A stretch of DNA of 64,000 bases from Chrysophaeum taylorii (Eukaryota > Sar > Pelagophyceae > Pelagomonadales > Pelagomonadaceae): positions 1 through 64,000 of the forward strand of contig JAQMWT010000653.1 of assembly GCA_029834535.1 (NCBI GenBank), written 5' to 3'. The first letter of the stretch is position 1. Each line of letters begins with the position of its first letter. The translations under genes and the position numbers were made by a program. The notes under the pieces were generated by a model. It had not been told where the DNA came from, did no database searches, and saw only the letters and a program-made list of their open reading frames with translations. Of this stretch, positions 1 through 60,631 are shown one piece after another.

Positions 1-780
1 ACGTGCAACGAACGAAGCGGAGTTGTTCTTTGACACAAAGGTCGGCGGTGACCGGAGTGGCATAACCGTCGTAGTCCTTCATTACACTCCGGTGTTGGCA
101 GGGCAATGTAAAAACTGCCAGGTCGAATGTAGGGAGTCGTATTTTGCCGGTTTGGAGTGCGGCATTGAGTTTTCTGAGGTCCGCATAGTGCTTGGCATGC
201 GGAAAGAGGTGTTGCGCACGGGTGCGCAGGATATCGTTGATTTCACAGGTGACTACGACAGTTAGGTGTTTGTCGAATCGCTTGCGATAAGTGTATAAAC
301 CTTCCTGGTGAAGTCCACCTGCAATAATGGCTGTTTCGAGCAGAGGGGTTTGTGTTTGCACAGAGAGGTCGGCGGAGCCATTGAAGGCGTAGTGGACGAC
401 AGGAGATTGGATGTTGAGCAGTTCGGTAAGATACATGGAACAATTTTGTAACTTCGCGAAGTCAAGCGTGTGCGATTTTGAGCGTGTCTCTGCGACATGC
501 TGTGTGATGTGTGCAATCTCATCTTGGAGTGACATTCGTTTGCTTGTGTGAAAGCTGACCACAGTGGCGAATGTGTGCTTGGGGTGGGATGGCAGGGACA
601 ACAGGCCGTTAGGCTTGCGAGCGGCAAGTACGACGGCGGTCTTTCCTATAAGTGTTGCGTGATTGTGGGGGTCTGAGGTTGAGGACATTAAGAGCGCATA
701 AAGGTAGGGCTCGTGGGGCAGTGGCGGGTCTGTTGCTTGTACATGCAGAGCTTTGAGCTGTGATGTTGCAATAACTTAAA
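1..780 (-). pseudogene. Unrecognised domain downstream of E0 protease, partial
   Basis: One minus-strand frame stays open for about 260 codons from near 780 to the window edge. It contains segments such as IGKTAVVLAARKPNGLLSLP, FNGSADLSVQTQTPLLETA and GLHQEGLYTYRKRFDKHLTV. It is mixed alpha/beta in character, with no transmembrane segment and no motif I can name. It occupies the place after protease where copia elements normally carry integrase, or where C2 carries its methyltransferase. None of the methyltransferase motifs (I, PPC, QxRxR) is visible in it. Confidence 0.45.
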
Positions 781-13600: not shown

Positions 13601-15134
13601 GTTGTTTGCTTCCAAGGATTACGAAGACCAGGATCCCCTACCAGCGTTTATTCCCTCGGAGATTGTCTTGGAGGAAGAGCGGAAGCCGCCAGATAAAGAG
13701 GCTGCCGCGAGCGTTATGGCGAAGACGCCAACAGATAATACGAAAGCTCAAGCCGCGGTATCGATGCCCAACCCCGGAGATGAGCGAATCAGAGCCCGAT
13801 GTGCTCACACTTCGTTGACGCCGCGAGACGGCAAGACGATAGAAGATGATTTGATTACCCTCCGTTGTTTAGATACGGGTACTCTAACGTTTATAGCCTG
13901 TCACATCTACAGGAATCGTGACGGACCGAAATTCTCGACGACAATCGGTGTCGATGGAATGGCAGATGTTTCTTATATTTGCCGAGAAATGGTCACAAAG
14001 TTGACCAAAGATCAGTTGATTTTCGATGAAGGCGAACTTCCGATGAAGCGCAAGCTGTACGGATCAGGGTTGAATACGACGACGATTTATCGTTGGATCG
14101 CCATTCGGGTCGCTTTCGCCGACGACTTCGCTGCCCCCATTGTCGCTATTGTAGCCGATACGAACTATCTGTTCCTGTTGGGAGGGCGCGATATACGAGT
14201 TTTAGGAGCCATCGTGGATTATCCCCACGATCGGATCTGTTTTTGTCGAACCCAAGTCGTCTACGGGCGCAAAAAGATTAAAGTTAAGGATGAACGAGTC
14301 GATGCACCAATCGTGACCTTTCGATCTATTTACGATCGAGATCCGATAACCGTACCGATTTACAATCATCAACACGATGCCTTTCGGCAGAGTCTCGACC
14401 TGGTCAAGACTCGAGTTTACGCTCGTTTGAGCACGATTAAAGATCTCCGAAGCCCGCCGCCGGAACGTAAGGTAGCCTTGGCTACGCGGGGACATGCTAC
14501 GACCAAATTCTCCCCAGCTCCGGGAGAAGACGCGCGAGAGCTAGCTTATGCTGCGCGCACGCTTCAAATCGAGCCCGGTCGAACTTACAATCTACCGGTT
14601 ATTTTGTCGAAACCTATGGAAATGGGACAGGTTTTCGTCGCTACGTTTGCTGAGAACGAGCAGTTGGGAGTTGTCGAAGGAATGTGTTCTTCTTGCGAAG
14701 AGCGCGACCGGTCCGCTGCTCGGGTGGCGGTTACTGCCACGGAAGAAGTGCCGACGGTCGTCACTCAAGGCGAAGTCCTTGCGATTGGCGATATCGTTAG
14801 GTACGAAGATGAGTTGAACGTCTCTACGATCAACGAACTTACGAAAGAATGTGAAGAAGGATACGACAAGGGGAACCTTTCTTTCACCGTTTCTGTCGCT
14901 AGTCACTTGACGCGATGCGACGAATCTCCCCCGCCGATGCTGCTGAGCACGGTGCAGAAGGACGCTACGACCGCTATGGCGGACAAGTCCACCCTCAAAC
15001 GACCTGAAGGCAGCGACGATTTCGCTCGAAGGTCGGAAGAAGATGAAAAGAAATGCCGCGAGATCACCGAAGCGGAGATCCGCCGCCGATATGAAAGGTT
15101 CAATGGCTTCCAATCACTTATCGCAAGGTGGTGA
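10626..15134 (+). CDS. Gag-protease polyprotein of G1
   Basis: An ATG opens a 1502-codon frame. In order: an Asp/Glu-rich N-terminus; a coiled coil (about residues 78-170) with a duplicated 23-residue unit; a capsid-like helical region (about 255-470, including EDHFSLEKLRYLLPATLRDTV); a CxxCGFF...THDxDEHGNRVxCNR zinc-finger-like motif (about 531-556); an Arg/Ser-rich tract (about 637-690); an acidic disordered linker; a retropepsin-like domain with VDGMADVSY near 1109 and LLGGRDIRVLGAIVD about 75 residues later; then a beta-rich segment of unknown role (about 1300-1420). Gag packages the RNA and protease cuts the precursor. G3 shares all these parts. Confidence 0.9.
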   Translation: MEDDDAAVEQLRYEEPPSRQDETNERNDDDDNDDDEEEHDTEVDEEDELDYNDGKPTERPTGGRSTAPSTRAEPPDATIMNEFYEAHLRALREENERAQERLLKQIGEENERKERLQRKEKEELIERLRRANDERKELLQRKEKEELIEQLRRANARADAFQDQVSSLTRERDELRTPSRSRRASSPESRAEEEPPTTRSRAKARKPRYEDDDEEEKEETRGAGRIDTQEFLMGFTDRLASALAKHDCNKERRSASGLKTETFKLALDGRDQDQFELDAGAVMSTLAEDHFSLEKLRYLLPATLRDTVAPIFREHLKKYEGLCKDLDHPASFYLRRDIDDEEYGSVVRRIRRLNEKYCLKILKYFRERCPLPVTAEESLRKLQCTTQATVPKRSGERHVHTYCIKFQQEGMAYCSVANRDLNDVEIISYLIRGLESSELTSRVRTMRSGHPTTYKTFTSTLSLITRLENDFATAMAEKNSRNSMNPSSGKPQKPPPGRGGRALVSGTKDKTTKYEALRLEENPKKWFERTCKDCGFFLATHDKDEHGNRVICNREPDDYYVAMCKYIEDGRKPISRGRWESRQRKDSHSRDDGSSNATLGSSAAHDIQSRLNDMGTQLTTVMDTVKHLTDGHGRSSSTRPGRRDSRSPRRRDKSRSSSRQRRRKDSRSSSRHSRRRRRRRSRDRDSDDGRYREDSGQSSTTFAFTTPCGQQLPLGVMVYPNTDTRTDDAADALAAAAFEDLARPPMDEPPNDVLTNRRSLAQIYEQMSSDELEDSSEELEAPRYWEGDSDSEDEEATREPVSAITLFDESSTDDPPFIFDEEALDAIGLALDPPETTAGDRTGCEPDMDFCSDSSCAHSTDETMTSASNADDDFTIELTSGTTPSFPADPPETVSVITDRDTDTPPEEKDRFMKKISSVLRWDEDEPTWNLQDWWTKARNFLLKKPPEQPHSCRLNAAADTEPIADADEDQQATNEFTDAFWDDEMNDLWEGLFASKDYEDQDPLPAFIPSEIVLEEERKPPDKEAAASVMAKTPTDNTKAQAAVSMPNPGDERIRARCAHTSLTPRDGKTIEDDLITLRCLDTGTLTFIACHIYRNRDGPKFSTTIGVDGMADVSYICREMVTKLTKDQLIFDEGELPMKRKLYGSGLNTTTIYRWIAIRVAFADDFAAPIVAIVADTNYLFLLGGRDIRVLGAIVDYPHDRICFCRTQVVYGRKKIKVKDERVDAPIVTFRSIYDRDPITVPIYNHQHDAFRQSLDLVKTRVYARLSTIKDLRSPPPERKVALATRGHATTKFSPAPGEDARELAYAARTLQIEPGRTYNLPVILSKPMEMGQVFVATFAENEQLGVVEGMCSSCEERDRSAARVAVTATEEVPTVVTQGEVLAIGDIVRYEDELNVSTINELTKECEEGYDKGNLSFTVSVASHLTRCDESPPPMLLSTVQKDATTAMADKSTLKRPEGSDDFARRSEEDEKKCREITEAEIRRRYERFNGFQSLIARW
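10956..11093 (+). repeat. 69-bp tandem duplication in G1 gag coiled coil
   Basis: Two nearly identical 69-bp units (10956-11024 and 11025-11093) encode RKEKEELIE(R/Q)LRRAN-type heptads. The period keeps the frame, so the coiled coil is lengthened by 23 residues. Confidence 0.9.
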
Positions 15135-15922
15135 TGCTGTTCAGTGGAGCCGGAGGCAGTACTTTAGGTCTCCAACGAGCCAACGAAACGTGTGGGACGT
15201 CGTTTCGAGTCGTGCTAGCACTCGATGCGTCGGACACCGCCAACCAGATCCACCACAAGAACTTTCCGAATATTCCTGTGGTGCAGCACACACTGTGTGG
15301 TCGCTATGTTACAACCTTACGGTTGATCGAATCTTTACCCTACGCGGAATGGTCGTCGTCGATGTGTGTCGCGTCGCCACCCTGCGTACACTCCGCTCTG
15401 TGCAACTTGACCTCCAGAGATGTTGGGAAAGGAGTTACCGCTACCCACTGGACGATGAAATTATGCAAGATGGCTGGTTTCTTCATGTGGTTGATAGAGC
15501 AGGAGGCTTCGATTATTTCTTACGTTGCACGTTTGCACCCTTACGTGTACGTCGTCAATTTTTACGACATAACTCCCAATTTGATGAGCTGTCGCGTGCG
15601 ATTGTTGGTTTCCAGCCATCCGCTCCATTTGCGCGCAGTTCCAAAGACTTGCAAGAATATGCAGCAAGAGTTCGCCGCAGCACTTGGCTACGCCGACGAA
15701 CGACATTTACTTCAGATGAACAATTTAGGATCATCACGAGCCGCGACAGACGCAGCTTACACCGTTACGCGTGTCCCGCTTCGCGTAGGACCGCACCGTT
15801 CCGATTACAGATCTCTGAATCTGAAAATGACTTCGGAGTTGCTGACGATGCCCCCTGATTTTGATTGGGCCGGCTTCTCCAGGACGACCTCGTTGAAACA
15901 CTGCGTCCGTCGTGCCACCTGA
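15128..15922 (+). CDS. Cytosine-5 DNA methyltransferase-like domain of G1
   Basis: About 260 codons lie between protease and RT. Seen: motif I-like MLFSGAGGSTLGLQRA; ALDASDTANQIHHKNFP in the place of motif II; the catalytic-type PPC at residues 84-86 (15377-15385) in MCVASPPCVHSA; an Ile-Glu-Gln-Glu in the place of the ENV Glu; a VVNFYDITPNLMSCRVRLL segment with RxR as in motif VIII; and LLTMPPDFDW near the end, like the 'FPDDF' region. This order fits the DNA_methylase family, which puts a methyl group on C5 of cytosine. The domain is short, with little room for a target-recognition region. G3 has the same domain, so it is a family trait. Confidence 0.85.
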   Translation: MVMLFSGAGGSTLGLQRANETCGTSFRVVLALDASDTANQIHHKNFPNIPVVQHTLCGRYVTTLRLIESLPYAEWSSSMCVASPPCVHSALCNLTSRDVGKGVTATHWTMKLCKMAGFFMWLIEQEASIISYVARLHPYVYVVNFYDITPNLMSCRVRLLVSSHPLHLRAVPKTCKNMQQEFAAALGYADERHLLQMNNLGSSRAATDAAYTVTRVPLRVGPHRSDYRSLNLKMTSELLTMPPDFDWAGFSRTTSLKHCVRRAT

Positions 15923-21121: not shown

Positions 21122-21370
21122 CGATGGATGCTCGAGCAGGAACCACCAGTGATCCCTTTTGTGCATCACAAATTTTATGTGCCGCGCATTGTCGATTTTC
21201 ATAGTATTACACCAGAATTGCTGTGCTCGCGCACGCGCCTACTTGCTTGCAATGTTCGCTTGGAACTGCCGTTATTATCGCGTGTACCACCGAATTTACG
21301 GGGCCGTTTTGGGCCAGCGTTGGGATTTACAGGTGGTCACCCGCTCATTATAGTGAACAAGTGCAGGCCA
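21122..21370 (+). pseudogene. Methyltransferase-like domain of G2, first piece
   Basis: The frame reads LEQEPPVIPFV...RIVDFHSITPELLCSRTRLLACNVRLELP, which lines up with IEQEASIISYV...VVNFYDITPNLMSCRVRLLVSSHPLHLR of G1. This is the second half of the methyltransferase-like domain, including the RxR of the motif VIII-like part. The piece ends at the helicase-bearing insert. Confidence 0.8.
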
Positions 21371-38553: not shown

Positions 38554-39464
38554 TAAGACTCAGATTCGGAGACCGACGAACCCATGCCGCAGGTTCTAGT
38601 GTCCCCCCATTCGTCAATGTGCATGTCTTGCAGGGCAGTTCGCGATGATGACGTTAGACCTTTTGAGTTGACGTCGGGGACGACGTCTTCTTTTCCTACG
38701 GGCCCCCCCGAGCCCGTTTTAACTAACTAACTAACTCAGACCTCTCCCGAGCATGGGAGCCAGGCCGGACCGACAGGTGCCAGTCCGGAACCACCGGCCT
38801 GTAGACGAGGAGCGCCGAAAGGTCGGTCGGCGGAGAGTGACCGTCAAGCTTGTCGCCATGCGACGAGGAGACCGCGATGTGACTGACAACCAACTCGTCG
38901 ATAACCTTCCGTCTTCGCCCCCCGGCCATACCCCGTCCCACTGCGAACGTTCCGGCTGCCAACCGGCCCGCCCGGGAGGCGAATAGGTGCCAACCTACGC
39001 CGGGAGGGCGGATGCCCTCGCAAGGCTCAGAATTCATGAGGCACCGTCCTCCATCGCAACGGCACTCGGCGATCAGGGTAAGGGTGTTCGTTTTGGCCGA
39101 TGTTTTAACCGATGTTTTAGCCGATACAGTTTTGGTCGCAGCAGAGCAGACCACAGGGGCGCCGATGGAGGAGAAGTTGACGGGAATGTCCGGTTTGATG
39201 GACGAGAAACGACGATTGCCAGAAGGGATAAAGGAGGAGGTATATGTGCCTCCGATTGAGAAGTGTCAGAATTTGTTGTCAGCGAAACTGGGGAATGAGG
39301 AAGCAGCCGAAGCGGCGAGCGCCAATATAGATTCAGCGGCGAGATGTGGAACGCCAGATATGGCAGCGGTGACGATGCAGATGCCGGGCGATGCGAAACC
39401 GGAGATACGATGCCATCACACTGCACTGTCGCCGAGTGATGGGGAAAAGATCGAGCAAGACCTC
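38554..39464 (+). pseudogene. Gag-protease linker of G3, split by a SINE
   Basis: Pieces 38554-38720 and 39089-39464 match the acidic linker of the G1 polyprotein (LTSGTTPSFPADPPE is LTSGTTSSFPTGPPE here). The second piece ends in HHTALSPSDGEKIEQDL, which matches AHTSLTPRDGKTIEDDL of G1 and is cut by N2. Confidence 0.8.
38721..39088 (-). repeat. SINE-like retroposon copy S4, full length (368 bp)
   Basis: Inverted relative to the window. It runs from the AACTAACTAAC complement of its tail to an end whose complement starts AACACCCTTACCCTGATCGCC, the same start as S5. CGTTTT flanks both sides (38715-38720, 39089-39094). No clear Pol III A or B box is seen, so the promoter type is unknown. Confidence 0.88.
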
Positions 39465-47650: not shown

Positions 47651-49640
47651 TTAGGGCTTGGACTTGGTGGAGCTGAGAGTCGACTTGACGCTTTTGAACA
47701 GAGCATTACGAGACACAGGTACGACAGACAGTGTGTTAAGGCTATCTGAGGTGGTGGACATCGTTACTGGTTCGAGAGTATCGGTATCGTCTTCGTCAGC
47801 TCCTGCTGTCCGGTGGTGAACACCAGTAGCAGAATGGTGTGGTACCATACGAAACGTGAGTGCAAGTAAAGCATTCAGTATGGATGGCACCAGCGAGTCA
47901 AGTTGTAGGGTGTCCAGTTGGTTTTCCAAGAAGTTGGACTCAGCGAACGGATCCGATCCGAGAAGATAGAAGAGTCGTCCGATTCACATGCCAAGGGAAT
48001 GCTTTGAATACACGAGAGCAGCTTATCACGCGGATGATGGAGGTGATCGTCCGGGGAGGAGTAGTTGGCGGCATATTGGTCATCAGCTGTAGGAGTTAAG
48101 CGAGACAGCAGCTCTGTGATCTTGTACAGTGTTATGAGTAACACGTGTGCATTGGCTGTAGGAGGAAAGAGCCGGTTCTCCAGGGAGGTGATTGAAGCAA
48201 TGGCAGCCTGCAGATCTGTGCGCAGAGATAGATTCTCAGCGCTGAGGGTGTTGACCTTGCGGATATGTAGGCGAAGAGTTTCCTGGTGTTGCTCGACTTG
48301 TTGACGCAAGGCATCGACATCAGCAGGCGAGGCAGAAGGAGCAGGGTGTGTCAATGGCGAAGACATTTCCAGAGTAGGCTCTGATGTGGAGAGTGAGTAG
48401 TTTAACGACGTTTCGGTCAACACATGCTGTGCAAGTAACGGGTGTTTCGCGTTTATAAAGCGCAGAAAGTCTTGATGTTCTGCCTGAGTATAAGTGGGGC
48501 CGAACATCACATCCAGGAGTGACGGCGGTTTTGTATCATCTGAAGATGATACGTAGTCGTCAAGATGTTGTACCCACGATTGGGCAACGGTAGTAACCAC
48601 ATGATGGAATTTGGAGGGCGTGAACATAGCCTGAGCTTTGCGACTCTGTGTTCGAACAAGAGTTACAAGGAAGTTAAGATGCTCAAGGTGCATCTGTGTT
48701 ATAAGCCGAAGATCCAGTGCGAATGGCCATTGTGTAGTAGGATCTGTTGAGGACTGAGCGGATACAGATAAGACTAAATTGACAAGTGACGTGTGTTGTG
48801 TTAGTATGCTTGTCAAAAGAGTATATAACTCCTTTGGCAAATGATAGATGCGTATGAGGGTAGCGCGTATATGACCAGCTGAGTGCGCATCACAAGGGAA
48901 TTGGAGGGAAGTATCATTGCGAGCACATACGGTAGGTTGTATAGGCACTTGATCAGTATTGTGACAAGCACCGCAAATTCCCATAGTGATAGTAGAGATG
49001 GGGATGTGATCATTCTTCTTATGGTCGTCCGTGTTGAGGTGACTCCGCACTTCGGTGGGGAGTTCACGAGGTGTTTGTGCCTTGGAACTGTACGTGGTCG
49101 AGACAAGGAAAGTCGGTTGTCCAAGATCATTGAGGCACTGCGTACAAAAAGACGGCAAAATGAAGCGCTCACGTTTGGTTCCTCTGTAGCAGCCAATAGA
49201 AGCAATAGCAGGAGCAGCATCCCAAGGTATAGTAATGGGTAGGCGCATTGATATGAATGTTGCAGTTCCACAAACAATGAAAAGTCAGTAGACTCATAGA
49301 TAGAGTTGAGGGCATTGGTGAGTTCCACTCGCATAAAAGAAGAGAGAAATGAGGTGACAGGGACACGGAAGTTCTAAAGGAGAGAGATCCCCCGTTCGAA
49401 CAGAGCATAATCTATGCTGAGGCCGTCCTGGAGAGTTAGCGATCGAGGTAAGGTATGTTCGGCTGGTGTCGGTGCAACAGCAGCAGCCTGTGAGGTAGCA
49501 GTAACAGCGGTCATGGGTTGTCGATTTTGCGACAACCTGGGACAAGGTTCGACCGTGGAGAGCGAGCGTGGGACTGTCCTTCGAACGACTGGGGAGATGC
49601 CGCGGCCACGGGAGTGCCAAGAAAAATACTTGAGCGACAC
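47651..49640 (-). pseudogene. ORF3 of C2, CxxC-paired protein after RNase H
   Basis: It matches C1 ORF3: the CTQC and CGAC pairs around FILPSFCTQCLNDLG and TMGICGACHNTDQV, LEHLNFLVTLVRTQSRK, TETSLNYSLST, a coiled coil (DALRQQVEQHQETLRLHIRKVNTLSAENLSLRTDLQAAI) and a VPSILNALLALTF tail that continues to about 47651, ending beyond where C1 is cut by E0. Sequence conservation between two diverged elements suggests a real product. No membrane segment or signal peptide, so not a typical envelope. Confidence 0.72.
48398..48418 (-). promoter_or_regulatory. Repeated boundary motif of copia elements (example copy)
   Basis: One of ten copies of a motif that on the plus strand reads TTTAACGACNTTTCGGTC, preceded by TAG. 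Others: 4210-4230, 5483-5503, 7370-7390, 9164-9184 (C1); 49688-49708, 51596-51616, 53758-53778, 57149-57169 (C2); 59277-59297 (C3, opposite strand). Read in the element's sense it encodes T-(E/A)-x-S-L-N-Y. The copies lie at or near module borders. Function unproved. Confidence 0.75.
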
Positions 49641-49725: not shown

Positions 49726-50367
49726 TCAATCTCGTAAAGGCTTGTCGTCAGAGGCATGATGCATGCCGAGTAGAGAACGAAAAGTGGAGAACTCAGCAGC
49801 AAGTGGCTTTGTAAAACCATCAGCCACGTTCAGCTTGCAGGGAACATGATGGACTCGAATTTTCTGTAGCGAGATGTACTCGCGGATCTTAAACCATCTG
49901 GTCGACAGTGCCTTGGATCGAGAAGATCCATCTGGGTTATTAGAGGTGTGAACGGCGGCGGCATTGTCAGATAAGAGAGGTAGGCTTATGACGAAGCGCA
50001 TATCTTCAGCAATTGGGTTGTCATTGTCATCGAAATCAACAGGATCCGCGGTGTTCTCACCATTAGCATTGTCGACGTAGAAGGTGGGGTTGACGACAAA
50101 GGAGAGTTCCAATCGCAGCTTGCGTAGCCAAACAGCTTCATCAGCACAAATACTGAGAGCAATCAACTCAGCTTCGTGAGTTGAGCAGGAGATAATCGGT
50201 TGAAGCTTGCTTCTCCAACCTATAAGGCAGTTGAAAAGATAGAAGACAAACCCGGTGGTAGATTTCCTATCTTCCTGTGCTAAGGAAGGGGCGTTGTCAG
50301 CGTCAACCATGGCAACTAAGGGATCAAACTGTCCAGTGGATACACCCTGCTGTTGGTAGTCGACCAC
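49726..50367 (-). pseudogene. Copia-type RNase H of C2
   Basis: EDRKSTTGFVFYLFNCLIGW, SCSTHEAELIALSICADEAVWLRK (catalytic Glu), LLSDNAAAVHTSNNPDG (catalytic Asp) and HHVPCKLNVADGFTKPLA are typical of Ty1/copia RNase H. An insertion of about 35 residues rich in Asp and Asn separates the Glu and Asp motifs, and C1 has the same insertion. Confidence 0.88.
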
Positions 50368-50439: not shown

Positions 50440-51504
50440 CTAGAGGCGAAGTGAACGGTTTTCCGGCTTCTTTAGGTAGCGGAGCAGGTGCTCTAGCATT
50501 TGGACGTGAACATACGTGGGTGCATGCATACCACGCGAACATCTGCCCAGGGCTTGCGAGAAGTCAGGTCTGCAGGCCACTTGCATGAACACCAGCTTGC
50601 CAAGGAGGGTGGCAAAGTGCGAATTGATGTACAACTCTGTTTCAGAGCTGGGAGTGCCATCTTTATACTTGAAGGACGATGACATAGGATATTTAAGCGG
50701 GGTCAGTTGCTGCAAGACAAGGTGATCAGCGAAGAGTTCATCAAGCTTGGCTTGCACATCCAGAGGAATGGATCCATCAGATGTGCGACACACACGCATG
50801 CCTAGGAGGGTATGGACAGGTTCAAACTGCTCTACAGCATACCGTTTGTGGTGGGCATCCTGTAACTCAGTACGAAGAGTGTCATCATTGGACACAATAA
50901 CAATGTCGTCTACAGACAGACTGCATACGACGAACTTAGCATGTGCGGATACTCGAGCATATAGGCAAGAGTCCGAATGCAGGCGCTTGTAGCCAAGGCT
51001 ACGGAAGAAGCCGTCTATCTCTTTGTTCCAAAGAGATGGTGATTGCCGAAGTCCATAAAGTGACTTCAGCAGTTTCGGTAGGCGTCGGCCCTTGTACTTA
51101 GCGTCATCGGGGTCGATAAGCTCGACGCCGTATGGTAACGGAACATAGACGTCGGCATCAATGTCAGACTGAACGAAGGCGTTCGGGACGTCTGCGTGGT
51201 GGACAGGCAACTGCTTGTATGCTGCAATAGCCAGTAGTACCCGGATTGCGGTCATTGTGGCCATTGGGCTGAAGGTGCCAAAGAAATCGGCGCCAAGAGA
51301 TGCTAGGAAGCCACGTAGCACGAGGCGAGCCTTGTGCTTAACGAATTTGCCTGCAGAGTCTGTTTTAATCTTCAGCACCATCCTGCTGTCAATAGGGCGA
51401 GAGACACCGTCGGGTAAAGAAAGTTTGAAGCAGCCAAACCGGATAATGTCGTGGAGTTCCTTGGCGATGGCCTTGACGTAGGCGTGCCTGTCTTCAGGCG
51501 ACAT
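50440..51504 (-). CDS. Copia-type reverse transcriptase of C2
   Basis: About 355 codons with HKARLVLRGFLASLGADFFG, FSPMATMTAIRVLLAIAAY, DVPNAFVQSDIDADVYVPLP, KSLYGLRQSPSLWNKEIDGF, CSLSVDDIVIVSNDD and ACRPDFSQALGRCSRGMH in the RVT_2 order. It makes cDNA from element RNA. The sequence just upstream (TVGPDEYKAQ) follows the boundary motif at 51596-51616. Confidence 0.9.
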   Translation of the reverse strand: MSPEDRHAYVKAIAKELHDIIRFGCFKLSLPDGVSRPIDSRMVLKIKTDSAGKFVKHKARLVLRGFLASLGADFFGTFSPMATMTAIRVLLAIAAYKQLPVHHADVPNAFVQSDIDADVYVPLPYGVELIDPDDAKYKGRRLPKLLKSLYGLRQSPSLWNKEIDGFFRSLGYKRLHSDSCLYARVSAHAKFVVCSLSVDDIVIVSNDDTLRTELQDAHHKRYAVEQFEPVHTLLGMRVCRTSDGSIPLDVQAKLDELFADHLVLQQLTPLKYPMSSSFKYKDGTPSSETELYINSHFATLLGKLVFMQVACRPDFSQALGRCSRGMHAPTYVHVQMLEHLLRYLKKPENRSLRL

Positions 51505-51549: not shown

Positions 51550-53325
51550 TTATTGGGCCTTATATTCGTCAGGACCAACAGTGGCTGGTGAACTATAGTT
51601 TAACGACGTTGCGGTCGAGGCAGTGTGCGTGACTTCGGGATAAGCGGAAACAGCGTCAGTAGGAGTAGGAGAGGCAGATTCCAGTTGAATATGGATAGTA
51701 GGGTCGGCATGTAAGACCTGGGTGATATACTCTGTAGAGACCAGAAGGTATTCCTCCAAGTCAGCCAGAGATGCAGAATTAGCGCCAAACTCGGAGGAGT
51801 TGTGATCGATAAAGCTGGTCGGCGCCAGATACATAAGTGCATACTGTAAGGAAGAGATGCCAAAGGCAGCAGCGTGCTCAGTGAACGCAGCTAAAAGAGG
51901 CTGAGGAATGGGGCACGTAGGTGAGCCATCAGCAGTTAGAAAGGTTGCAACTGGGATGCTGGATGCGCACTTGGTGTGGGCGAAGTAACCATCGACGTGC
52001 GGGTAGCGGGCAAGTAAGTCAGTGCGCAACGGGAGAAGAAGACGAGCTAACAACGCATGTTCCCCCTCTGAGCAGATAGCAGACCAGAGGATACCACCAT
52101 TGATATGAAGGGCGGAGAGGGCGGGAGACTTGAACGTAAGAAAGTGGTGGCGAAGATCCCAGCGGAAATCGGCGAGTTTGCCACCAACGGCTTTGTAAGC
52201 ACCAATAGTAGACGCTTGCAGCCGGGCTTGGATATTTTCCATGGAGGTTGCCTTGCGGGTGTTAGGTTGTTTGGAACCTGGGACAAGAATGAGGTCATCT
52301 TGTGCAAAAAGGTCTTTGTAAGAAGGAAGCAAGGGCGGCGGTGGCATAGAGCCAGAATCGTCGGCTGCGTCGGAAGAGGGGGAAGAAGCAGGAGCAGGGG
52401 ACGAAGAAGGAGCTGAAGGAGGTGGAGAATGCCCCCTCTGAGGATGAAGTGTCCGTGTCCCCCTCTGAATGACATGATATTGGATAGCGGCGTGGGGTGT
52501 GAGCGAGAAAGGCGCGGGAGGAGCGTGAGGCGGAGGAGCAAGTTCAGGATCAGGAGTAGGATGCTGGAGCATGTAGAGGAATTGCAGCTTGGACGAAACA
52601 CGAATTTGTCCGTTTTCAGGGTTGAGGACGACGTCGGCGATATGGTCAACACGTGGGGAGACGAGCGGGTTTTGCGCGTTGGCGCAACATAGATATAAGT
52701 ATTTGCGGCGGCACGTTTCCCACTTGTGGTGCTCGTGGGATTCCAACAGAAGGTAGCATTCAGCGCCGGAGATCTTGAGCATGTCATGCTGGGGGGTGCT
52801 TAGTTGGTTGTAGAGCAGCTGTTGCGGACATAGGATGGCATGGTGAATGGGCTCGAGCGTGGCGTTCGGAAGGAGGTTGTAGCTTTGTATGGTGCGTATT
52901 ACCGCCCAGGGGAACATGATGGCTCGTTCCACGATCTTTGAGCCACGATAATGAGCATCAAGGAGAGAACGAAGGCGAGTCGAGGAGGCGGAGGCGATGA
53001 AGCCGATGGCTGACCCAACTTCAAAGTCAAAGTGGTGCATGTACGGCGGGAAAGCGATGAGCCGAATGCCTTTATCGACGCGGCACGGGGCGGTAATGTG
53101 CTGGCTAAAATAGGGTTTGAAGGCATCAGAGAAGAGGGTGCGCACGTGCACGTTGAGTTGTGTACGACAAAAGTCATACACAAAATCCAGGGCTTGAGTG
53201 AACTCCGTGGCGTTGGTGGTGCGTGTCAAGTACACAACAGAAACTTCGAGATAAGCTCTTTGAACACAATAATATGTGTGAAGCCTCCCCATTCTGACGG
53301 AATTGTCACATAGCCGCCGTCGCAC
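51550..53325 (-). CDS. Integrase core and C-terminal region of C2
   Basis: The frame (591 codons) begins in the integrase core: LTRTTNATEFTQALDFVYDFC, TLFSDAFKPYFSQH (second catalytic Asp), FPPYMHHFDFEVGSAIG (probable catalytic Glu), then the SGAECYLLLESHEHHKWETCRRKYLYLCC block that matches the typical copia 'fGc.aYv' region. A long Pro/Ser-rich linker (SPPPSAPSSSPAPASSPSSDA) and a conserved segment up to TATSLNYSSPATVGPDEYKAQ follow. It acts at the cDNA ends in integration. Confidence 0.85.
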   Translation of the reverse strand: MRRRLCDNSVRMGRLHTYYCVQRAYLEVSVVYLTRTTNATEFTQALDFVYDFCRTQLNVHVRTLFSDAFKPYFSQHITAPCRVDKGIRLIAFPPYMHHFDFEVGSAIGFIASASSTRLRSLLDAHYRGSKIVERAIMFPWAVIRTIQSYNLLPNATLEPIHHAILCPQQLLYNQLSTPQHDMLKISGAECYLLLESHEHHKWETCRRKYLYLCCANAQNPLVSPRVDHIADVVLNPENGQIRVSSKLQFLYMLQHPTPDPELAPPPHAPPAPFSLTPHAAIQYHVIQRGTRTLHPQRGHSPPPSAPSSSPAPASSPSSDAADDSGSMPPPPLLPSYKDLFAQDDLILVPGSKQPNTRKATSMENIQARLQASTIGAYKAVGGKLADFRWDLRHHFLTFKSPALSALHINGGILWSAICSEGEHALLARLLLPLRTDLLARYPHVDGYFAHTKCASSIPVATFLTADGSPTCPIPQPLLAAFTEHAAAFGISSLQYALMYLAPTSFIDHNSSEFGANSASLADLEEYLLVSTEYITQVLHADPTIHIQLESASPTPTDAVSAYPEVTHTASTATSLNYSSPATVGPDEYKAQ

Positions 53326-54416
53326 GCCCAGACTTCGCCGGCTTTGTGAGTTTGCTCAAAAGAGGGCTTGGTCGGATTGAAGTGCTTGTGCGGGTGGCGC
53401 TTGTTGTGTACGATGCAGTCGGTGCATAAGTCGCGAGACGGTAGGTCAGAGGCAGAGAAGCCAGGGCGAGCCAGTACGTTGGGGGCCTTGGCAGCGACGT
53501 TGTCGGGGCAGTGGTGCACCCGGTGGAAGCGATTGGCACGTTCTTTGGCGTTGAGGTATTCGGCAGATCCGTGTGCCAAGGACTTGCGAGGAATGGGATG
53601 AGCGGGAATATGACGTTTGCGCCGAACATCGAACTTGAGTTCGGTGTCCAAGGCAGGGGGAGGCGGTGCGTCGTCATCCTGGTGCGCAGCAGGGTCACTT
53701 GGAGGTGCATCCTCATCATCACGAGTAGCGAGAGTATCTTCGTAGGACGAAGATATATAGTTTAACGACATTTCGGTCAAGCAGTTGCTGGAAATAGACG
53801 TCATAAAGGCTTGTGCCAAAGACAAGGTATCTGTGCTGCACGTGGTGGAGGCCTGACCAAAGGTCATAAAGTTGGATACATAGGATTTCTTCGTCACGGC
53901 AGCAGTATGTTGGAAGGTAGGGTCCAACATAAGAGATTTAATATCGGCAACGAGGAGCGAAAGGTGCTTGTACAGTGTACTGTACGTACCTGCAGGCAGA
54001 GCATTGCTGAGCATGTCGCAGCAAGGGTCGTGGCGAAGAGACAAGAGGAAAGACTCCTGTTGTTTGGTGTGGTTGTTAGCACGAATCAACTCCAGTCGAG
54101 TGGCGTAGCATAATTTCCCGTTGCGAGGGTCGAGTAAAATAATGTTGGCATACCCTCGGACGGTGGGCAATGGAGCAAGCATGGAGTGCATTTTAGAGCC
54201 AAGTTTGCGGTCACTTCCACGAAGATACCCTATATAGCGACTATGAGATAAGTGGTGATCTTCCAGAGCAAAATGAGATTCTTTGTAGTCGAAAGAGCTG
54301 TCGGTGGCCTTGTAAGGCAGCCAGGCATTACAAGAGAGCATCTGGACAAGAGCTTTTGTATGGCGGTGCCATAGGTGGCAGCGGAGCCAACTTGAGGAAG
54401 GGCTAGGATTATCCAC
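53226..54416 (-). CDS. Pre-integrase region and integrase zinc site of C2
   Basis: About 395 codons. Seen: HLSHSRYIGYLRGSDRKLGSK and RGYANIILLDPRNGKLCY (also in C1 and C3), TEMSLNYISSS at the boundary motif (53758-53778), a basic RRKRHIPAHPIPRK segment, the zinc site RFHRVHHCPDN...LCTDCIVHNKRH, and the start of the core with WACDGGYVTIPSEWGGF (first catalytic Asp). The first 150 residues have no named domain; they lie between methyltransferase and integrase. Confidence 0.82.
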   Translation of the reverse strand: MDNPSPSSSWLRCHLWHRHTKALVQMLSCNAWLPYKATDSSFDYKESHFALEDHHLSHSRYIGYLRGSDRKLGSKMHSMLAPLPTVRGYANIILLDPRNGKLCYATRLELIRANNHTKQQESFLLSLRHDPCCDMLSNALPAGTYSTLYKHLSLLVADIKSLMLDPTFQHTAAVTKKSYVSNFMTFGQASTTCSTDTLSLAQAFMTSISSNCLTEMSLNYISSSYEDTLATRDDEDAPPSDPAAHQDDDAPPPPALDTELKFDVRRKRHIPAHPIPRKSLAHGSAEYLNAKERANRFHRVHHCPDNVAAKAPNVLARPGFSASDLPSRDLCTDCIVHNKRHPHKHFNPTKPSFEQTHKAGEVWACDGGYVTIPSEWGGFTHIIVFKELISKFLLCT

Positions 54417-55678
54417 AAGTAACCCATAAACGGCTCCAAATATATAGATCTGTCCCTGTCGCGGGGGACGTTGGAGGCAGTAAACGTATACGTGCTTCCA
54501 AACGCGTCAATGGAAGCATGATATTTGGCGGCGGCGTTCTCTATGGTGAGGTTGCCGTCAGAATGGTGGCCACCGGTTAGGAAGTAGATATTGTGCGATG
54601 TTGATGAGGTTGCAAGTAGCAACCTATGTGACGGTTGGTCAGTTTCGAAAACAGTTATGTAATAGGACACAGGAGTGGGTGAGTTAGTGTGTAAGCTGGC
54701 AAACAAGTTATAGAGGATTGTAAAAACCTTGACGTGTATAGGATGTGTTGCATTGGGTAATGGCTCCATAGAGGAGCGTTTAAAGTACAACTGGTGATAA
54801 GTACACTCGGATTGAACAGAGTGAGTACGTTGCTCGTGAGCCTGTTGTGAGTGAAGGCGAAGCAGTAACATATTGAGGGATTCAAGGTCAGCCATAGTAA
54901 GCTGAGCAGAACCTGTGCGAGAGTAAGGTGCAAACGTTTTAGGAACGGGTATATATGGAGGATCGGGGAACACCCGGATCCAGTCTTTGGATATGTGGTT
55001 AGGCAGCCAAAGGCGCGTGGGAATAGCTTGTAGATCATCCACGATCTTTAGGAAGGGGCGTGGATGGAGGATAGGCCACGACAATGCTTTAATTGGTCCA
55101 GTAGAATACATGCGTGCGATGCATATCCATCTTTCTCTAGATTGGTAGTCGCCACAGAGGTAGGTCGGGAGCCTATCAACAACATCGACACAGTAATCAA
55201 GTGTAGTATGGATGAGGTTGGCCACTGTGATGTGGTCTTGATGACAGTACTTATGCGGAGGCGTCATCTCAGCCAGTAGCACCAAGGGTTGGAGTAACTT
55301 GATGACAGACAGCATGCTGTCGAAAAGAGAATCGTCCAGCAGGCTGTGTAAGTCTTCTGTCTTATGCTGTTTTAGTAGACTCCTGTTCGTGCAGGGAGGA
55401 GTGATCTCAATTATATCACAATAGAATGTGCGTCTTTCCTCTGGTGAAATTAGGCGAAGATGGTTAATAAAGGCGGGGGGAGATTCAAATAATAGTACAG
55501 TAGGAAAACGGTGGCGTGACATACGAACAAGCGTATCATCAGACTCAACAACAACTTTTACATTGATATTTAAGCCTAAGTCATTAGTGGCTTGAGACAG
55601 GAACGCCGGATTTGACAAACCAGAACAAAGTAACATGACAGAGGGTTTGCGGAGATTGGACTCTTGCGAGAGAAACAC
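54230..55678 (-). CDS. Cytosine-5 DNA methyltransferase-like domain of C2
   Basis: Within a frame of about 480 codons the first 260 residues show, in order: VMLLCSGLSNPAFLSQA (motif I place), VVVESDDTLVRMSRHRFP (motif II), DIIEITPPCTNRSLL (motif IV with PPC at 55391-55399), LFDSMLSVIKLLQPLVLLAEM (motif VI place, Glu kept), and TYLCGDYQSRERWICIA (motif VIII, a perfect QxRxR at about 55127-55150). This is the order and spacing of bacterial-type and eukaryotic C5 methyltransferases such as M.HhaI. The glycine-rich motif I is atypical, so activity is uncertain. The later 220 residues continue into the segment shared with C1 and C3. The domain is not closely similar to that of G1/G3. Confidence 0.82.
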   Translation of the reverse strand: MFLSQESNLRKPSVMLLCSGLSNPAFLSQATNDLGLNINVKVVVESDDTLVRMSRHRFPTVLLFESPPAFINHLRLISPEERRTFYCDIIEITPPCTNRSLLKQHKTEDLHSLLDDSLFDSMLSVIKLLQPLVLLAEMTPPHKYCHQDHITVANLIHTTLDYCVDVVDRLPTYLCGDYQSRERWICIARMYSTGPIKALSWPILHPRPFLKIVDDLQAIPTRLWLPNHISKDWIRVFPDPPYIPVPKTFAPYSRTGSAQLTMADLESLNMLLLRLHSQQAHEQRTHSVQSECTYHQLYFKRSSMEPLPNATHPIHVKVFTILYNLFASLHTNSPTPVSYYITVFETDQPSHRLLLATSSTSHNIYFLTGGHHSDGNLTIENAAAKYHASIDAFGSTYTFTASNVPRDRDRSIYLEPFMGYLWIILALPQVGSAATYGTAIQKLLSRCSLVMPGCLTRPPTALSTTKNLILLWKITTYLIVAI

Positions 55679-55712
55679 TGGGCGTGAAAGTAGTCAAGTT
55701 AATGGCTGCGTA

Positions 55713-56096
55713 AATACCCTTACCCTGATCGCCGACTGCGGTTGCGATGGAGGACGGTGCCTCATGAATCCTGAGCCTTGCGAGGGCATCCGCCCTCCCG
55801 GCGTAGGTTGGCACCTATTCGCCTCCCGGGCGGGCCGGTTGGCAGCCGGAACGTTCGCAGTGGGACGGGGTATGGCCGGGGGGCGAAGACGGAAGGTTAT
55901 CGACGAGTTGGTTGTCAGTCACATCGCGGTCTCCTCGTCGCATGGCGACAAGCTGATGGTCGACAAGCTTGAAGGTCACTCTCCGCCGACCGACCTTTCG
56001 GCGCTCCTCGTCTACTGGCCCGTGATTCCGGACTGGCTCCTGTCGGTCCGGCCTGGCTCCCATGCTCGGGAGAGGTCTGAAGTTAGTTAGTTAGTT
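55713..56096 (+). repeat. SINE-like retroposon copy S5, full length (384 bp)
   Basis: It starts AATACCCTTACCCTGATCGCC and ends GGTCTGAAGTTAGTTAGTTAGTT. AATGGCTGCGTA (55701-55712) and AATGCCTGCGTA (56097-56108) flank it, a 12-bp target duplication with one difference. It splits C2 between protease and methyltransferase. It is the best reference copy of this retroposon in the window. Confidence 0.9.
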
Positions 56097-56773
56097 AATG
56101 CCTGCGTATTTTGCTGAACAAACTTGTTCTGTTTCCGAAGATTGAGAACCAAAGGGCGAATCCACGGGCGATCTGGTAAAACTCTTAGGAGTAGGTAGTT
56201 GTAGTATGCCAGTAGATCCCTGTTTTCATGGTATCGTTCGAGGGGAAATGCGAGGGAACGATGTTCGAGTTGCTTGTCGCGAGCGATGTTGTAAGTGAGA
56301 CAAGGGAGAGCAGGTAAATTAGCTGCTATGTAGTGTATGGGAACACGCACATATTTGTCTATGCGGCTCGTGACAGCGCTGAGCTTTGGCTCAGCTCGAT
56401 CATTGAACACAGTGGTCAGGCTCGACTGGTTCCACTCGAGCATGCTCAGGATAGCGAGATGTCGGTCGTGCACTGGCTGAAGACATAAAGCGAAGTCGAT
56501 CTTAACGTAGCCAATTTGTGGATGATCTGGTAGGGGAACAACAATGTTGCGTGTTAACATCATGTGTGAGGCACGTTGTTGTCCAGTGGCTGTTTGAATA
56601 ACAATCGGCGCATATTTGGAGTCCAGTGGAATAAAGTGATTAGGTATTGCAAAATCATAAGTGGACATCAATGAGATGGTAGCACAAGAGTCAAATATAA
56701 AAAGGAACAATGTGGAGGGACACTGTTTACCTTCATGTAGTTGGTGAGGAAGGCGTTTACCGAATGTGTGCAA
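56097..56773 (-). pseudogene. Retropepsin-like protease of C2
   Basis: The frame has LFIFDSCATISLMSTY, an Asp-Ser-Cys-Ala in the place of the usual Asp-Thr/Ser-Gly-Ala, then VIQTATGQQRASHMM (flap-like) and HLAILSMLEWNQ (in place of the ILG-x-D/N-x-L half). The order and spacing fit a retropepsin that cuts the polyprotein. The remainder (RIDKYVRVPIHYIAANLPAL...) is unassigned and leads to the SINE. Confidence 0.65.
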
Positions 56774-57579
56774 GTGGTGGAGAGGCTGGCTGTGAAGAAG
56801 TTCTCCAGCAATAGCAGATTCGTTAGAATGATAATCGGTTGAACAGGTGGTGATGGTTCGTCAACCTCATCAGCCATGCCGTGCTTTTCATCAAATGACG
56901 ATAGCGAAGTATGATCGGCATCCCTTTTGGTTTCGGCTTGTGGTGGTAAGTTGAGGGCAGATTGGACCTGTGAAGATAGCGAGGACAGTAACGCTGGTGG
57001 TAAAGCCGAGATGGCGTAAGCAGTAAAGAGGTTAGGCACAATATTGGAGGGATTACCCTGTGTGTTGGGGGCAATCTTCGTGTCTGTAGTAGGAGGAGTT
57101 GCCTTTGGGGTGGGAGCAGTAACAACAGTATGGTGTTGTGGCTCCACGTAGTTTAACGACTTTTCGGTCGAGGATAGATGAACGTCTACATCATAAATGA
57201 TATCTTCGGCACACATGAGTTGTTCGTTTAGACGAAGTAAATTGCGGTTGTCCTCCGTAGATGTCGTTGACAGAATGTCAGCTGATTGTAATAGAGTCTC
57301 AAATAACTTGTTGATATTCTGTTGTAGCTGAGCCGTGGTATCGTTATCTGTCACATGCTTCGTAAGTTCACTACACTGTTCTCGCAGGGTGTTTAAGGTG
57401 TGATTTGTTCGATCTATTAATTTCATGTTAGATCGAGAGGACCTGTCAAAAGTGCGGGGGTAAATTGGACGGTCATGGGACTGTCCAGCAGTTTTCTTGG
57501 TGACGTAAGAATCACCAGAACGAAAATACGATAAGTCGCTGCGAGAGAAAGGCTGGCGAGCATCATTAGAGTTACGCAA
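56668..57579 (-). pseudogene. Coiled-coil and linker region of C2 Gag
   Basis: A basic N-terminal part (SRSDLSYFRSGDSYVTKKTAG), then a helical region (DRTNHTLNTLREQCSELTKHV...LQQNINKLFETLLQSADIL), TEKSLNYVEP at the boundary motif (57149-57169) and a Thr/Pro-rich linker before the protease. It probably forms the Gag C-terminal part. No zinc knuckle is visible. Confidence 0.6.
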
Positions 57580-58337
57580 GCGTCTAGCATTAACGTGGAA
57601 GATGTACCAGGTTGAGACGCAGTGATGAGGGCGAGTGTGTTAGCAGTTTGAGTCAGACTTTTGTCTGCTAAATCCAGCGTGTTTATAAGTAGTAACTTTG
57701 GCTTTGGTTGAGATGACAAACCTTCGACATAGGGTTGCCAAGAAACGGGGCGTTCTAAGCGTCTTTTGTTCGACCCATTTGATACTACATTGTATAAGTC
57801 TAATGCATATTCTAAAATGTAGCTAGGGTTGGTAGGGTGACACAATCGTTCAGCTTCTGGCACAGGCCGAGATGAAGATCGGGTTTCATACATATAACAC
57901 CAATCTACCCAACCACGATCGTAACGATTGTTGCTGGTATTATCGTCACAATGGCTATGTATCTCTTCATAGATTTTTATACAAAGAGTACCAAAGTCGA
58001 ATTGAAGGTCAGTCTCTTCCTGGTTAAGTTGGTAAGAGATTTGCCTGAATGCTAGGACAGCTTCGATAACTACATGGACATACCAGTTAGGATTATTAAC
58101 AACAGAGTTAAATTGCTGTTTCAAATAGGACACATCAGTAGTCGCAACAGACTCGTAGTGACTAAAAGCGATGAGCATAATGGCTCGAGCCTTGTTGGTT
58201 AAATAACTTTTGTTATATACCTCTTTGATGGCGGGCCTGGCCGCAAGTGCTGGTTTTCCAACACTTTCCAGATTGAAGTAAGTATGCAAGAATGTAGCAT
58301 ACGTGTTCTGATAAGTGTGCCAGTCAGCAGCAGCCAT
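57423..58337 (-). pseudogene. Gag-like N-terminal region of C2
   Basis: An ATG at 58337 opens about 300 codons, starting MAAADWHTYQNTYATFLHTYF. The sequence is helical and aromatic-rich (ARAIMLIAFSHYESVATTDVSYLKQQFNSVV; GWVDWCYMYETRSSS), as expected for a capsid. The ATG lies directly on the junction with C3, so part of the 5' end may be missing. Identity as Gag rests on position. Confidence 0.55.
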
Positions 58338-60631
58338 CCTCTATAATGTGTTTGCCAGATTGCACACTAACTCACCCACACATGTGTCCTATTACATAAC
58401 CGTTTTCGAAACTGACCAACCGTGACATAGGTTACTACTTACAACCTCATCAACATCACACAATACCTGCTTCCTAACCGGCGGCCACCATTCTGACGGC
58501 AACCTCACCATATAAAACGCCGCCGCCAAACATCATGCTTCCATTTACGCGTTTGAAAGCACGTATACGTTTACTGCCTCCAACGTCCCCCGCGACAGAG
58601 ACAGATCTATATATTTGGAGCCGTTTATGGGTTACTTGTGGATAATCCAAGCCCTTCCTCAAGTTGGCTCCGCTGCCACCTATGGCACCGCCATACTAAA
58701 GCTCTTGTCCAGATGCTCCCTTGTGATGCCTGGCTGCCTTACCTACAAGGCCACCGACAACTCTTTCGACTACAAAGAATCTCATTTTGCTCTGGAAGAT
58801 CACCACTTATCTCACAGTCGCTATATAGGGCATCTTCGTGGAAGTGACCGCAAACTCGGCTCTAAAATTCACTCCATGCTTGCTCCATTGCCCACCGTCC
58901 GAGGGTATGCAAACATTATCTTACTCGACCCTCGCAACGGGAAACTACGCTATCCTATTCGACCGGAATTGATTCGTGCTAAGCACACCAAACAACATGA
59001 ATATTTCCTCTTGTCTCTTCGCCACGATCTTTGCTGCGACATGCTCAGCAATGCTCTGCCTGCCGGTACGTACAGCACACTGTACAAGCACCTTTCGCTC
59101 CTCGTTGCCGATATTAAATCTCTTAGGTAGGACCCTACCTTCCAACATACTGCTGCCGTGATGAAGAAATCGTATATATCCAACTTCATGACCTTTGATC
59201 CGGCCTCCACCACGTGCAGCACAGATACCTTGTCTTTGGCACAAGCCTTCATGGCGTCTATCTCCAGCAACTGCTTGACCGAAATGTCGTTAAACTATAT
59301 ATATTCGTCCTACGAAGATACTCTCGCTACTCGTGCTGATGAGGATGCACCTCAAAGTGACCCTGCTGCGCACCATGATGACGACGCACCACCTCCTCCT
59401 GCCTTGGACACCGAACTCAAGTTCGATGTTCGGCGCAAACGTCATATCCCCGCTCACTCCATTCCTCGCAAATCCTTCGCACACGGATCTGCTGAATACC
59501 TCAACGCCAAAGAACGTGCCAATCGCTTCCACCGGGTGCACCACTGCCCCGACAACGTTGCAGCCAAGGCCCCCAACGTACTGGCTCGCCCTGGCTTCTC
59601 TGCCTCAGACCTACCGTATCGCGACTTATGCACCGACTGCATCGCACATAACAAGCGCCACCCGCACAAGTACTTCAATCCGACCTAGCCCTCTTTCGAG
59701 CAAACTCACAAAGCCGGCGAAGTCTGGGCGTGCGACGGCGGCTATGTGACAATTCCATCAGAATGGGGAGGCTTCACACATATCATTGTGTTCAAAGAGC
59801 TTATCTCGAAGTTTCTCTGGGTGTACTTTACAAGCACCACCAACGCCACGGAGTTCACTCAAGCTCTGGACTTTGTGTATGACTTTCGTCGTACACAACT
59901 CAACGCGCACATGCGCACCCTCTCCTCTGATGCCTTCAAGCCCTATTTTAGCCAGCACAATACCGCCCCGTACCGCGTCGATAAGGGCATTCAGCTCATC
60001 GCTTTCCCGCCGTACATGCACCACTTTAACTTTGAAGTCGAGTCAGCCATCGGCTTCATCGCCTCCGCCTCCTCAACTCGCCTTCGCTCTCTCCTTAATG
60101 CTCATTATCCTGGCTCCAAGATCGTTGATCCAGCCATCATGTTTCCCTGGGCGGTGATACACACCATCCGAAGCTACAACCTTCTCCCGAACGCCACGCT
60201 CGAGTGCATTCACCATACTATCCAGAGTCCGCAACCGCTACTCTACAATCAACTGAGCACCCCCCAGCATGACATGCTCAAGATCTTCGGCGCTGAATGC
60301 TACCTTCTATTGGAACCCCACGAGCACCACAAGTGGGAACCGTGCCGCCGCAAATACTTATATCTATGTTGCGCCAACGCACAACACCCGCTCGTCTCCC
60401 CACGTGTTGACCATATTGCCGACGTCGTCCTCAACCCTGAAAACGGACCAGTCCGTGTTTCGTCCAAGCTGCAATTCCTCTACATGCTCCAGCATCCTAC
60501 TCCTGATCCTGAACTTGCTCCTCCGCCTCACGCTCCTCCCGCGCCATTCTCGCTAACACCCCACGCTGCTATCCAAGACCATTCCATTCAGAGGGGGACA
60601 CGGGCACTTCATCCTCAGAGTGGGCACTCTC
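58338..60631 (+). mobile_element. Ty1/copia-like fragment C3, head-to-head with C2
   Basis: It starts at ATCCTCTATAA, corresponding to C2 near 54720, and runs through the pre-integrase segment, TEMSLNY motif (59277-59297), zinc site (HHCPDN...CTDCIAHNKRH, about 59540-59660) and integrase core (WACDGGYVTIPSEWGGFTH, about 59725-59780) to the VRVSSKLQFLYMLQH region, where N3 cuts in. It is very close to C2. It lacks the parts upstream (Gag to methyltransferase) and has a few breaks. Confidence 0.87.

Follow-up and report, generated by a model that had tools for sequence, protein, structure and literature searches.

We found that a Ty1/copia retrotransposon, C2, carries inside its pol region a domain that resembles C5-cytosine methyltransferases (MTases) and for which we find support for purifying selection. 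The element lies in a 64,000-nucleotide stretch of the Chrysophaeum taylorii genome (GenBank assembly GCA_029834535.1, contig JAQMWT010000653.1, positions 1 to 64,000; hereafter the window). The domain almost certainly has the C5-MTase fold and is an integral part of the element, and it is probably catalytically active. Many hosts silence transposons by cytosine methylation, so a transposon that carries the enzyme itself is a paradox. The overall reading that we moderately favor is that copia acquired a C5-MTase that would be read through behind a UGA-CUA stop context, packaged, and used to mark the element's own complementary DNA (cDNA).

A first-pass annotation of the window had proposed an ordered set of C5-MTase motifs between the protease and integrase of C2. 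All of the quoted motif peptides are present and in the right order, but on the minus strand, in an open reading frame (ORF) of 482 aa (54230-55678); the plus-strand translation is riddled with stops. Unless stated otherwise, features below are on the minus strand. The domain (54698..55678), delineated from the ORF, homologues, AlphaFold2, Foldseek/VIA, and pN/pS, is the first behind an in-frame UGA and runs from motif I to a motif X-like helix. We compared the window copy with its outside relatives (five proteins of other sources, P0001 to P0005, 25-42% identical; six aligned sequences with the window copy) and with 30 copies from the genome. Motif I, the cofactor loop (VMLLCSGLS; 55613..55639), has Cys in place of the Phe of M.HhaI; C18 and S19 are invariant in 6/6 aligned sequences, and the Cys, Gly, and Ser occur in 29, 28, and 30 of the 30 copies. 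Its CSGLS lacks the canonical Phe, and its position matches strand 1 of the AlphaFold2 model. The acidic E45 of motif II (VVVESD; 55538..55555) is kept in 6/6 aligned sequences and 30/30 copies. Motif IV (TPPC; 55391..55402), with the presumed catalytic Cys96, was found in 30/30 copies, and in a profile alignment it falls on the PC of 3g7u. Motif VI (LLAEM, with Glu137; 55265..55279) is present in 30/30 copies, its AEM recurs in 6/6 aligned sequences, and it aligns by profile on the AEN of 8yf3; P95, C96, and E137 are identical in all six. Where enzymes have ENV at motif VI, C2 has AEM, and two further copia lineages described below have MEM (C3) and ENV (family A), with the Glu retained in all three. 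Motif VIII (QSRER; 55130..55144) keeps the Gln and both Arg (R181 and R183) in 30/30 copies, and both Arg are present in the 5/5 aligned sequences (the window copy among them) that extend this far; P0003 stops short of it, and P0005 lacks the Gln.

The claimed M.HhaI-like spacing also held. E137 and R181 are 44 residues apart, equal to E119-R163 of M.HhaI (numbers from PDB titles), and Cys and Glu are 41 residues apart versus 38 in M.HhaI, the catalytic Cys of which is C81. Further along, we recognized a motif IX-like stretch (RTGSAQLTMADLESLNML; 54866..54919) by eye against SLTIRE of P0004 and RLTVTE of C3, and a motif X-like stretch (HPIHVKVFTILYNLFA; 54698..54745) aligned with family A; both are low-confidence helices in the longer structure model. 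The motif X-like assignment is unsure because VIA, unlike this assignment, places residues up to ~222 on the C-terminus of solved enzymes. The domain probably extends beyond the lower of the originally proposed limits (54830-55678), to ~54698.

The departures of motifs I and VI from the canon, and a window copy barely seen by Pfam, would fit a domain that has lost catalysis and plays a structural or DNA-binding role in the particle or in the integrase complex. However, 30/30 copies keep Cys, Glu, and both Arg, as do the outside relatives wherever they span these positions, and family A has the canonical motifs LPCQ and VENVPP, hence PCQ and ENV, in 18/18 loci examined. We consider loss of catalysis improbable.

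Structure prediction gave a fold match, the lack of which the first-pass annotation had named as fatal to its claim. By Foldseek/VIA, the predicted core is a class-I MTase fold closest to C5 enzymes, with 12-22% identity in the structural alignments listed, and DNMT2 chains are among the Foldseek matches. In the first AlphaFold2 model, the blocks 41-90, 121-140, and 151-160 have a mean predicted local distance difference test score (pLDDT) of 71-90. The best PDB sequence for both copia profiles was 8yf3, a cytosine C5-carboxymethyltransferase (E 0.0066 and 0.023), a match too weak for inferring the cofactor.

A genome-wide search for copia copies with the domain returned at least 137 matching C2 stretches, 70-100% identical, in 70.8 Mb and 697 contigs; by our own count, 33 of the 137 have internal stops. 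Copy counts here refer to matched stretches, and duplicate contigs (C10/C297, C6/C268, and C25/C521), whose near-identical rows suggest uncollapsed haplotypes, may inflate them. The C2 domain was found on the same strand within 7 kb upstream of 40 of the 150 scored matches to RVT_2, the Ty1/copia reverse transcriptase (RT) family (1670 candidates), and within 7 kb downstream of none. The distance between the two was 3187-6289 nt (median 4262), and 19 of the 40 pairs lay 4253-4278 nt apart. This analysis used 136 of the 137 C2 rows (one 26-aa row dropped) and 55 of the 57 matches to the MTase family PF00145 (two host-type genes dropped); no listed MTase of family A lies within 7 kb upstream of any of the 150 RVT_2 matches. 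We rejected the idea that copia elements with no listed MTase nearby lack one: the single element of another type that was opened, on contig C483, holds a divergent MTase.

The ratio of nonsynonymous to synonymous polymorphism (pN/pS) of the C2 domain, pooled over the 30 copies, was 0.19; since these 30 are the copies that match the window best, pN is biased downward. Across 300 codons from motif I on, the ratio was 0.20, whereas the protease tail (n = 21) had 0.30 and the extension behind the domain (n = 8) had 0.32. In a frame control with 29 copies, the domain shifted by one base gave 0.99 versus 0.24 in the true frame. A chance resemblance of short peptides, which the low single-sequence Pfam score might have suggested, is refuted by the fold, homology, and selection, and we give it a negligible probability.

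C2 is ordered, on the minus strand, Gag-like, protease-like, MTase, long extension, integrase, RVT_2, and RNase H-like. The window copy has Gag-like ORFs in two overlapping frames (56671..58337; placed by position, in the same order as in a better preserved copy, L061; no Pfam match over cut-off) and a protease-like stretch read by eye (DSCATISLMS; 56090..56773; no Pfam match at E ≤ 1, nor for its L061 counterpart). Behind the MTase lie the extension and integrase region in two frames (51553..54416; order as in the L061 frame), RVT_2 (50443..51504; E 5.5e-43), and an RNase H-like ORF (49729..50367; placed by position and by eye, unmatched in Pfam). For Gag, protease, and RNase H of C2, the names come from reading by eye and from position, without Pfam support. 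A short interspersed nuclear element (SINE)-like insert of 381 bp, read by eye (55712..56092, plus strand), splits the window copy between the protease tail and the MTase; it is flanked by 15-bp repeats (55697-55711 and 56093-56107, 14/15 alike), and its portion 55713-55954 recurs at 38847-39088 with 98% identity. In L061, MTase, extension, integrase, and RT share a single 1691-aa frame, with the integrase family rve at 784-866 (E 0.0076, below its cut-off) followed by RVT_2 at 1431-1651 (E 7.7e-42). The integrase therefore lies ahead of the RT, which is the Ty1/copia order.

Directly 5′ of the MTase, an in-frame TGA-CTA (55691..55696) is a candidate readthrough stop. TGACTA is present in 25/30 copies and TGA in 26/30; the remaining copies have a TAA in another frame (1/30) or no stop across the 40 codons read (3/30). 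The frame of the protease tail (KFVQQNTQPLT) meets the stop and then enters the MTase in frame. An exact match places the tail in frame ahead of the TGA in 20 copies, and reading by eye adds 4; the window copy and another copy (L014) have a different sequence between tail and TGA. UGA CUA is given as a high-readthrough consensus in human cells in the excerpted text of PMC4359377. C3 has TGA-CGC ahead of the MTase, and family A, unlike C2, has protease and MTase in one shared frame. From the stop context we infer a readthrough Gag-protease (PR)/Pol with the MTase first in Pol. In C2, the UGA-CUA would yield Gag-PR in excess, and readthrough would yield Gag-PR-MTase-integrase (IN)-RT-RNase H (RH), such that the MTase would be packaged alongside RT and integrase.

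C2 is one of at least three copia lineages in this genome that carry such a domain. The PF00145 genome search gave 57 matches, and of the 30 that were read, 28 belong to family A and the other two are a DNMT2-like and a DNMT5-like gene. Family A is Ty1/copia: in its copy L062, a frame of 1952 aa combines a DGGAS protease motif (recognized by eye) with matches to PF00145 (E 1.1e-7), rve (E 0.0061, short of its cut-off), and RVT_2 (E 1.6e-38), and the ends of the copy are a direct repeat of ~200 nt, 89% identical. The window itself holds a family A MTase fragment (2..376), cut by the window edge and 89% identical to L062 over 125 aa. The third lineage, C3, is the element met on contig C483, and its domain is 49% identical to that of C2. 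By profile comparison, C2 matched C3 at E 1.1e-57 and family A at E 7.7e-16 over 300 columns, then the host DNMT5-like gene at 1.5e-4 (probability 52), the host DNMT2-like gene at 1.4e-3, and the gypsy domain of the window at 0.3, a ranking that serves as a guide only because profile depths are unequal. In hhalign, the copia families matched one another at probability 98-100. At the level of these profiles, the domains of the copia lineages are homologous.

Identity between C2 and C3 is 49% for the domain and 47% for the extension and integrase; between C2 and family A it is 22% for the domain, 26% for the integrase, and 37% for the RT. The domain thus diverges at about the pace of its neighbors, which fits vertical inheritance after a single old acquisition. 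We judge one acquisition for C2, C3, and family A to be fairly probable: a Ty1/copia ancestor would have acquired a C5-MTase long ago, and the three lineages would have inherited it as the domain next after the protease. Outside this genome, no protein matched family A at E ≤ 0.1 among 7996 candidates scored, and we found no phage relatives of the C3 domain. As to a possible host-gene source of the C2 domain, the closer of the two host-type genes compared is the DNMT5-like one, far behind the copia relatives.

The gypsy domain (15128..15922, plus strand; PF00145 E 1e-5) is followed by RT, RNase H, H2C2, and rve, which is the Ty3/gypsy order. At least 145 stretches match it, including two within open frames of more than 3000 aa; read by eye, the domain retains FSGAGG and PPC, and EQEAS stands where motif VI is expected. 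A third gypsy MTase, more divergent (32-37% to the 15-kb one), survives as split remnants at 21125-21361 and 22383-22520 (plus strand). As the first-pass annotation stated, copia and gypsy elements of one genome each carry an MTase domain, the former identified by fold and homology and the latter by Pfam. It had also described the two domains as very different, differently placed in pol, and independently captured. The difference stands at the profile level, where hhalign found no relation between the gypsy and copia profiles (probability 0.2 and 1.2) and the nearest profile relatives of C2 are copia elements of the same genome; BLASTP, however, aligned C2 and gypsy at 21% over 90 aa (E 0.002). 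The placement claim held only in part. In both elements the MTase is the next recognizable domain after a protease-like stretch (protease read by eye), and what follows it differs because the superfamilies differ.

The shared slot and the BLASTP match would fit a single capture that was passed between copia and gypsy elements by recombination and then diverged. In a tree of 15 rows that included the gypsy domain and host DNMTs, the deep order was not settled (8/12 inner branches open), and a clade of C2, C3, their relatives, and gypsy was not rejected (p 0.118). On the other hand, hhalign failed to relate gypsy to copia where the copia families reach 98-100 even though the family A profile is just as shallow, the host DNMT2-like gene lies closer to the gypsy profile (probability 11) than the copia domains do (all of these matches being weak), and family A with gypsy was weakly rejected (p 0.044). 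The best tree joins gypsy with host DNMT2 (98/98, long branches). Copia with the outside relatives as one clade was not rejected (p 0.18), nor was family A with host DNMT2 (p 0.084). We therefore regard a shared capture as unlikely and independent capture into a similar slot as the likelier reading, whose independence the BLASTP match and the tree leave short of established. Copia lineages that share the domain at ~22% identity, and a gypsy lineage with another in a similar slot, would mean that such a domain has been useful to LTR (long terminal repeat) elements more than once; the many natural copies make it possible to test what it does for them.

Element-borne enzymes of this kind suggest a chemical marking of DNA (or RNA) within the life cycle. 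We reasoned that the packaged MTase would most likely act on the double-stranded cDNA of its own element, methylating cytosines there before integration or as it takes place; the copy would then enter the genome pre-marked. In the excerpted text of de Mendoza et al. (2018; PMC5890265), a cDNA-marking idea is proposed for DIRS elements. That cDNA is the main substrate is a tentative assignment, which we hold at somewhat less than an even chance.

Several observations, in addition to the downward bias in pN given above, weigh against the overall reading. The window copy scores 12.7 bits against a PF00145 cut-off of 22, and the outside relatives P0001 (20.2) and P0003 (17.7) also fall under it; P0002 (23.0), P0004 (24.3), P0005 (23.8), and family A (32.1) exceed it. 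The C3 domain gives no Pfam match, and C2 has CSGLS instead of FxGxGG and AEM instead of ENV. The two AlphaFold2 models have a mean pLDDT of only 53.7 and 50.9; the Cys96 loop (residues 91-110), residues 171-180, and the end after 190 are poorly modelled, and the target-recognition region and motifs IX-X of the longer model have a confidence below 50, the resemblance there being by eye and by family A alignment. With regard to a single acquisition, the best tree, with its long branches, splits the copia domains (2 changes), a grouping of family A with host DNMT5 is not rejected (p 0.388), and BLASTP between C2 and family A (E 0.042) is weaker than between C2 and gypsy. Readthrough in C2 is a prediction from the kept UGA-CUA context. 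A comparable enzyme, KnitGypsy-Dnmt3, was inactive in yeast, a result that its authors call inconclusive (PMC5890265, excerpts). Finally, CpG transitions among copies were 1.13 (C2, n = 28), 1.08 (gypsy, n = 12), and 1.01 (family A, n = 25) times CpH transitions, and no trinucleotide context exceeded 1.6 times the mean (highest, 1.58 for GCT in C2 and 1.40 for ACT in family A). The CpG footprint data thus do not clearly point to elements densely methylated at CG.

A footprint that is not clear in three element groups could also be explained by an RNA m5C methyltransferase that, in a DNMT2- or DNMT6-like role, marks the genomic RNA of the element or its transfer RNA primer. The core fold is common to DNMT2, and an RNA substrate was raised for a LINE (long interspersed nuclear element) enzyme in the excerpts of de Mendoza et al. 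(PMC5890265). We find this explanation unlikely, as the closer host-type gene by profile is DNMT5-like and not DNMT2-like, both matches being weak.

The host-type genes bear on another alternative, in which the domain would work in trans, with retroelement enzymes adding new CG methylation to the host genome and a host DNMT5 maintaining it. The DNMT5-like gene (L032, contig C621, 23.6 kb) matched 7r76 at E 3e-143, and the DNMT2-like gene (L031, contig C634) matched human DNMT2 at E 4e-39; both loci have a GC content of 61-63%. Contamination is unlikely for the DNMT2-like gene because matches to light-harvesting complex (LHC) proteins share its contig (at 8.1-8.6 kb and 40.7 kb). The genome has 84 LHC matches (PF00504), some on contigs with a C2 copy (C390) or the DNMT2-like gene, which point to a photosynthetic, algal host; tandem LHC arrays were seen on contigs C88 and C539. 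We dropped an early idea of a dinoflagellate or Perkinsus origin; the dinoflagellate spliced-leader pattern had 0 exact matches, which by itself is no argument either way. We found no DNMT1- or DNMT3-like gene among the 30 PF00145 matches read, as action in trans would predict; however, the 27 unread matches could hide one, 123 of 474 PF00145 candidates were scored, and introns can conceal exons. CpG observed/expected ratios were lower in element stretches (0.91 in L061, 1.03 in L062, and 1.03 in the window) than at two host loci (1.26 and 1.46), but CpG transitions among copies are not in excess. We consider action in trans rather improbable, and a wider scheme slightly more so, in which de novo cytosine methylation would come from two superfamilies of LTR retrotransposons, both having captured an MTase of their own behind the protease, and the host would retain only a maintenance DNMT5 that copies the marks on.

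We also observed further C2 material in the window. A second C2 copy (58336-60631, plus strand) lies head to head with the first and begins just past the motif X-like helix, hence without the MTase. C2-type elements have a further ORF downstream of RNase H (47875-49334 and 3612-5471), which contains an SLNY motif. This belongs to the 20-base motif ACCGNNNNGTCGTTAAACTA, whose in-frame reading is T-x-x-S-L-N-Y and which occurs at 57159, 53768, 51606, 49698, 48408, 9174, and 4220, and at 59287 on the plus strand. It lies near the borders of the C2 polyprotein (Gag/PR, MTase/IN, and IN/RT), as SLN-stop after RNase H (49698), and within the 3′ ORFs. It has 1183 exact matches in the genome versus 0 for a reversed control, and its synonymous codons are fixed as well. 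We take T-x-x-S-L-N-Y to resemble a protease site, SLNY/x; alternatively, GUUAAAC could be a slip site. An Rfam scan of the window gave nothing over gathering scores.

Retroelements with DNMTs have precedents. The excerpts of de Mendoza et al. (PMC5890265) describe them in LINE, DIRS, and Gypsy elements and report the LTR Copia superfamily of Symbiodinium as without any DNMT domain. One sentence in the excerpted text of a 2025 paper (PMC12344493) names "LTR Copia" with DNMT3 and cites the 2018 paper, where Gypsy is reported; that text describes no copia element, so the sentence neither excludes nor confirms an earlier copia carrier. None was named in the titles or abstract openings found by our search, which most subscription papers and preprints lay outside. 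Closest to C2 is KnitGypsy-Dnmt3 of Klebsormidium nitens, likewise a DNMT domain in an LTR Pol polyprotein with key residues kept and under purifying selection (its Ka/Ks < 0.2; PMC5890265, excerpts); it is Ty3/gypsy, DNMT3-related, and from a charophyte, whereas here the carriers are several Ty1/copia lineages with a divergent MTase placed in no DNMT class, no DNMT3 reference sequences having been compared. SymbioDIRS-Dnmt3 and SymbioLINE-Dnmt of Symbiodinium also occur as many retroelement copies with DNMT domains, in other element classes than C2, and two SymbioDIRS enzymes methylate CG de novo in yeast (PMC5890265, excerpts). Sola1-1_Ec32 of Ectocarpus is, like C2, an algal transposon that brings a DNA methyltransferase, but it is a DNA transposon with a predicted N4C/N6A enzyme (PMC12477816, excerpts). 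With M.HhaI, M.HaeIII, DNMT1, DNMT2, DIM2, and DNMT5, C2 shares the predicted core fold, motif order, and Glu-Arg spacing; it differs from them in having CSGLS for FxGxG and AEM for ENV and in being fused into a copia polyprotein. Overall, retrotransposon-borne DNMTs were already known, and we file Ty1/copia as carrier as the new part.
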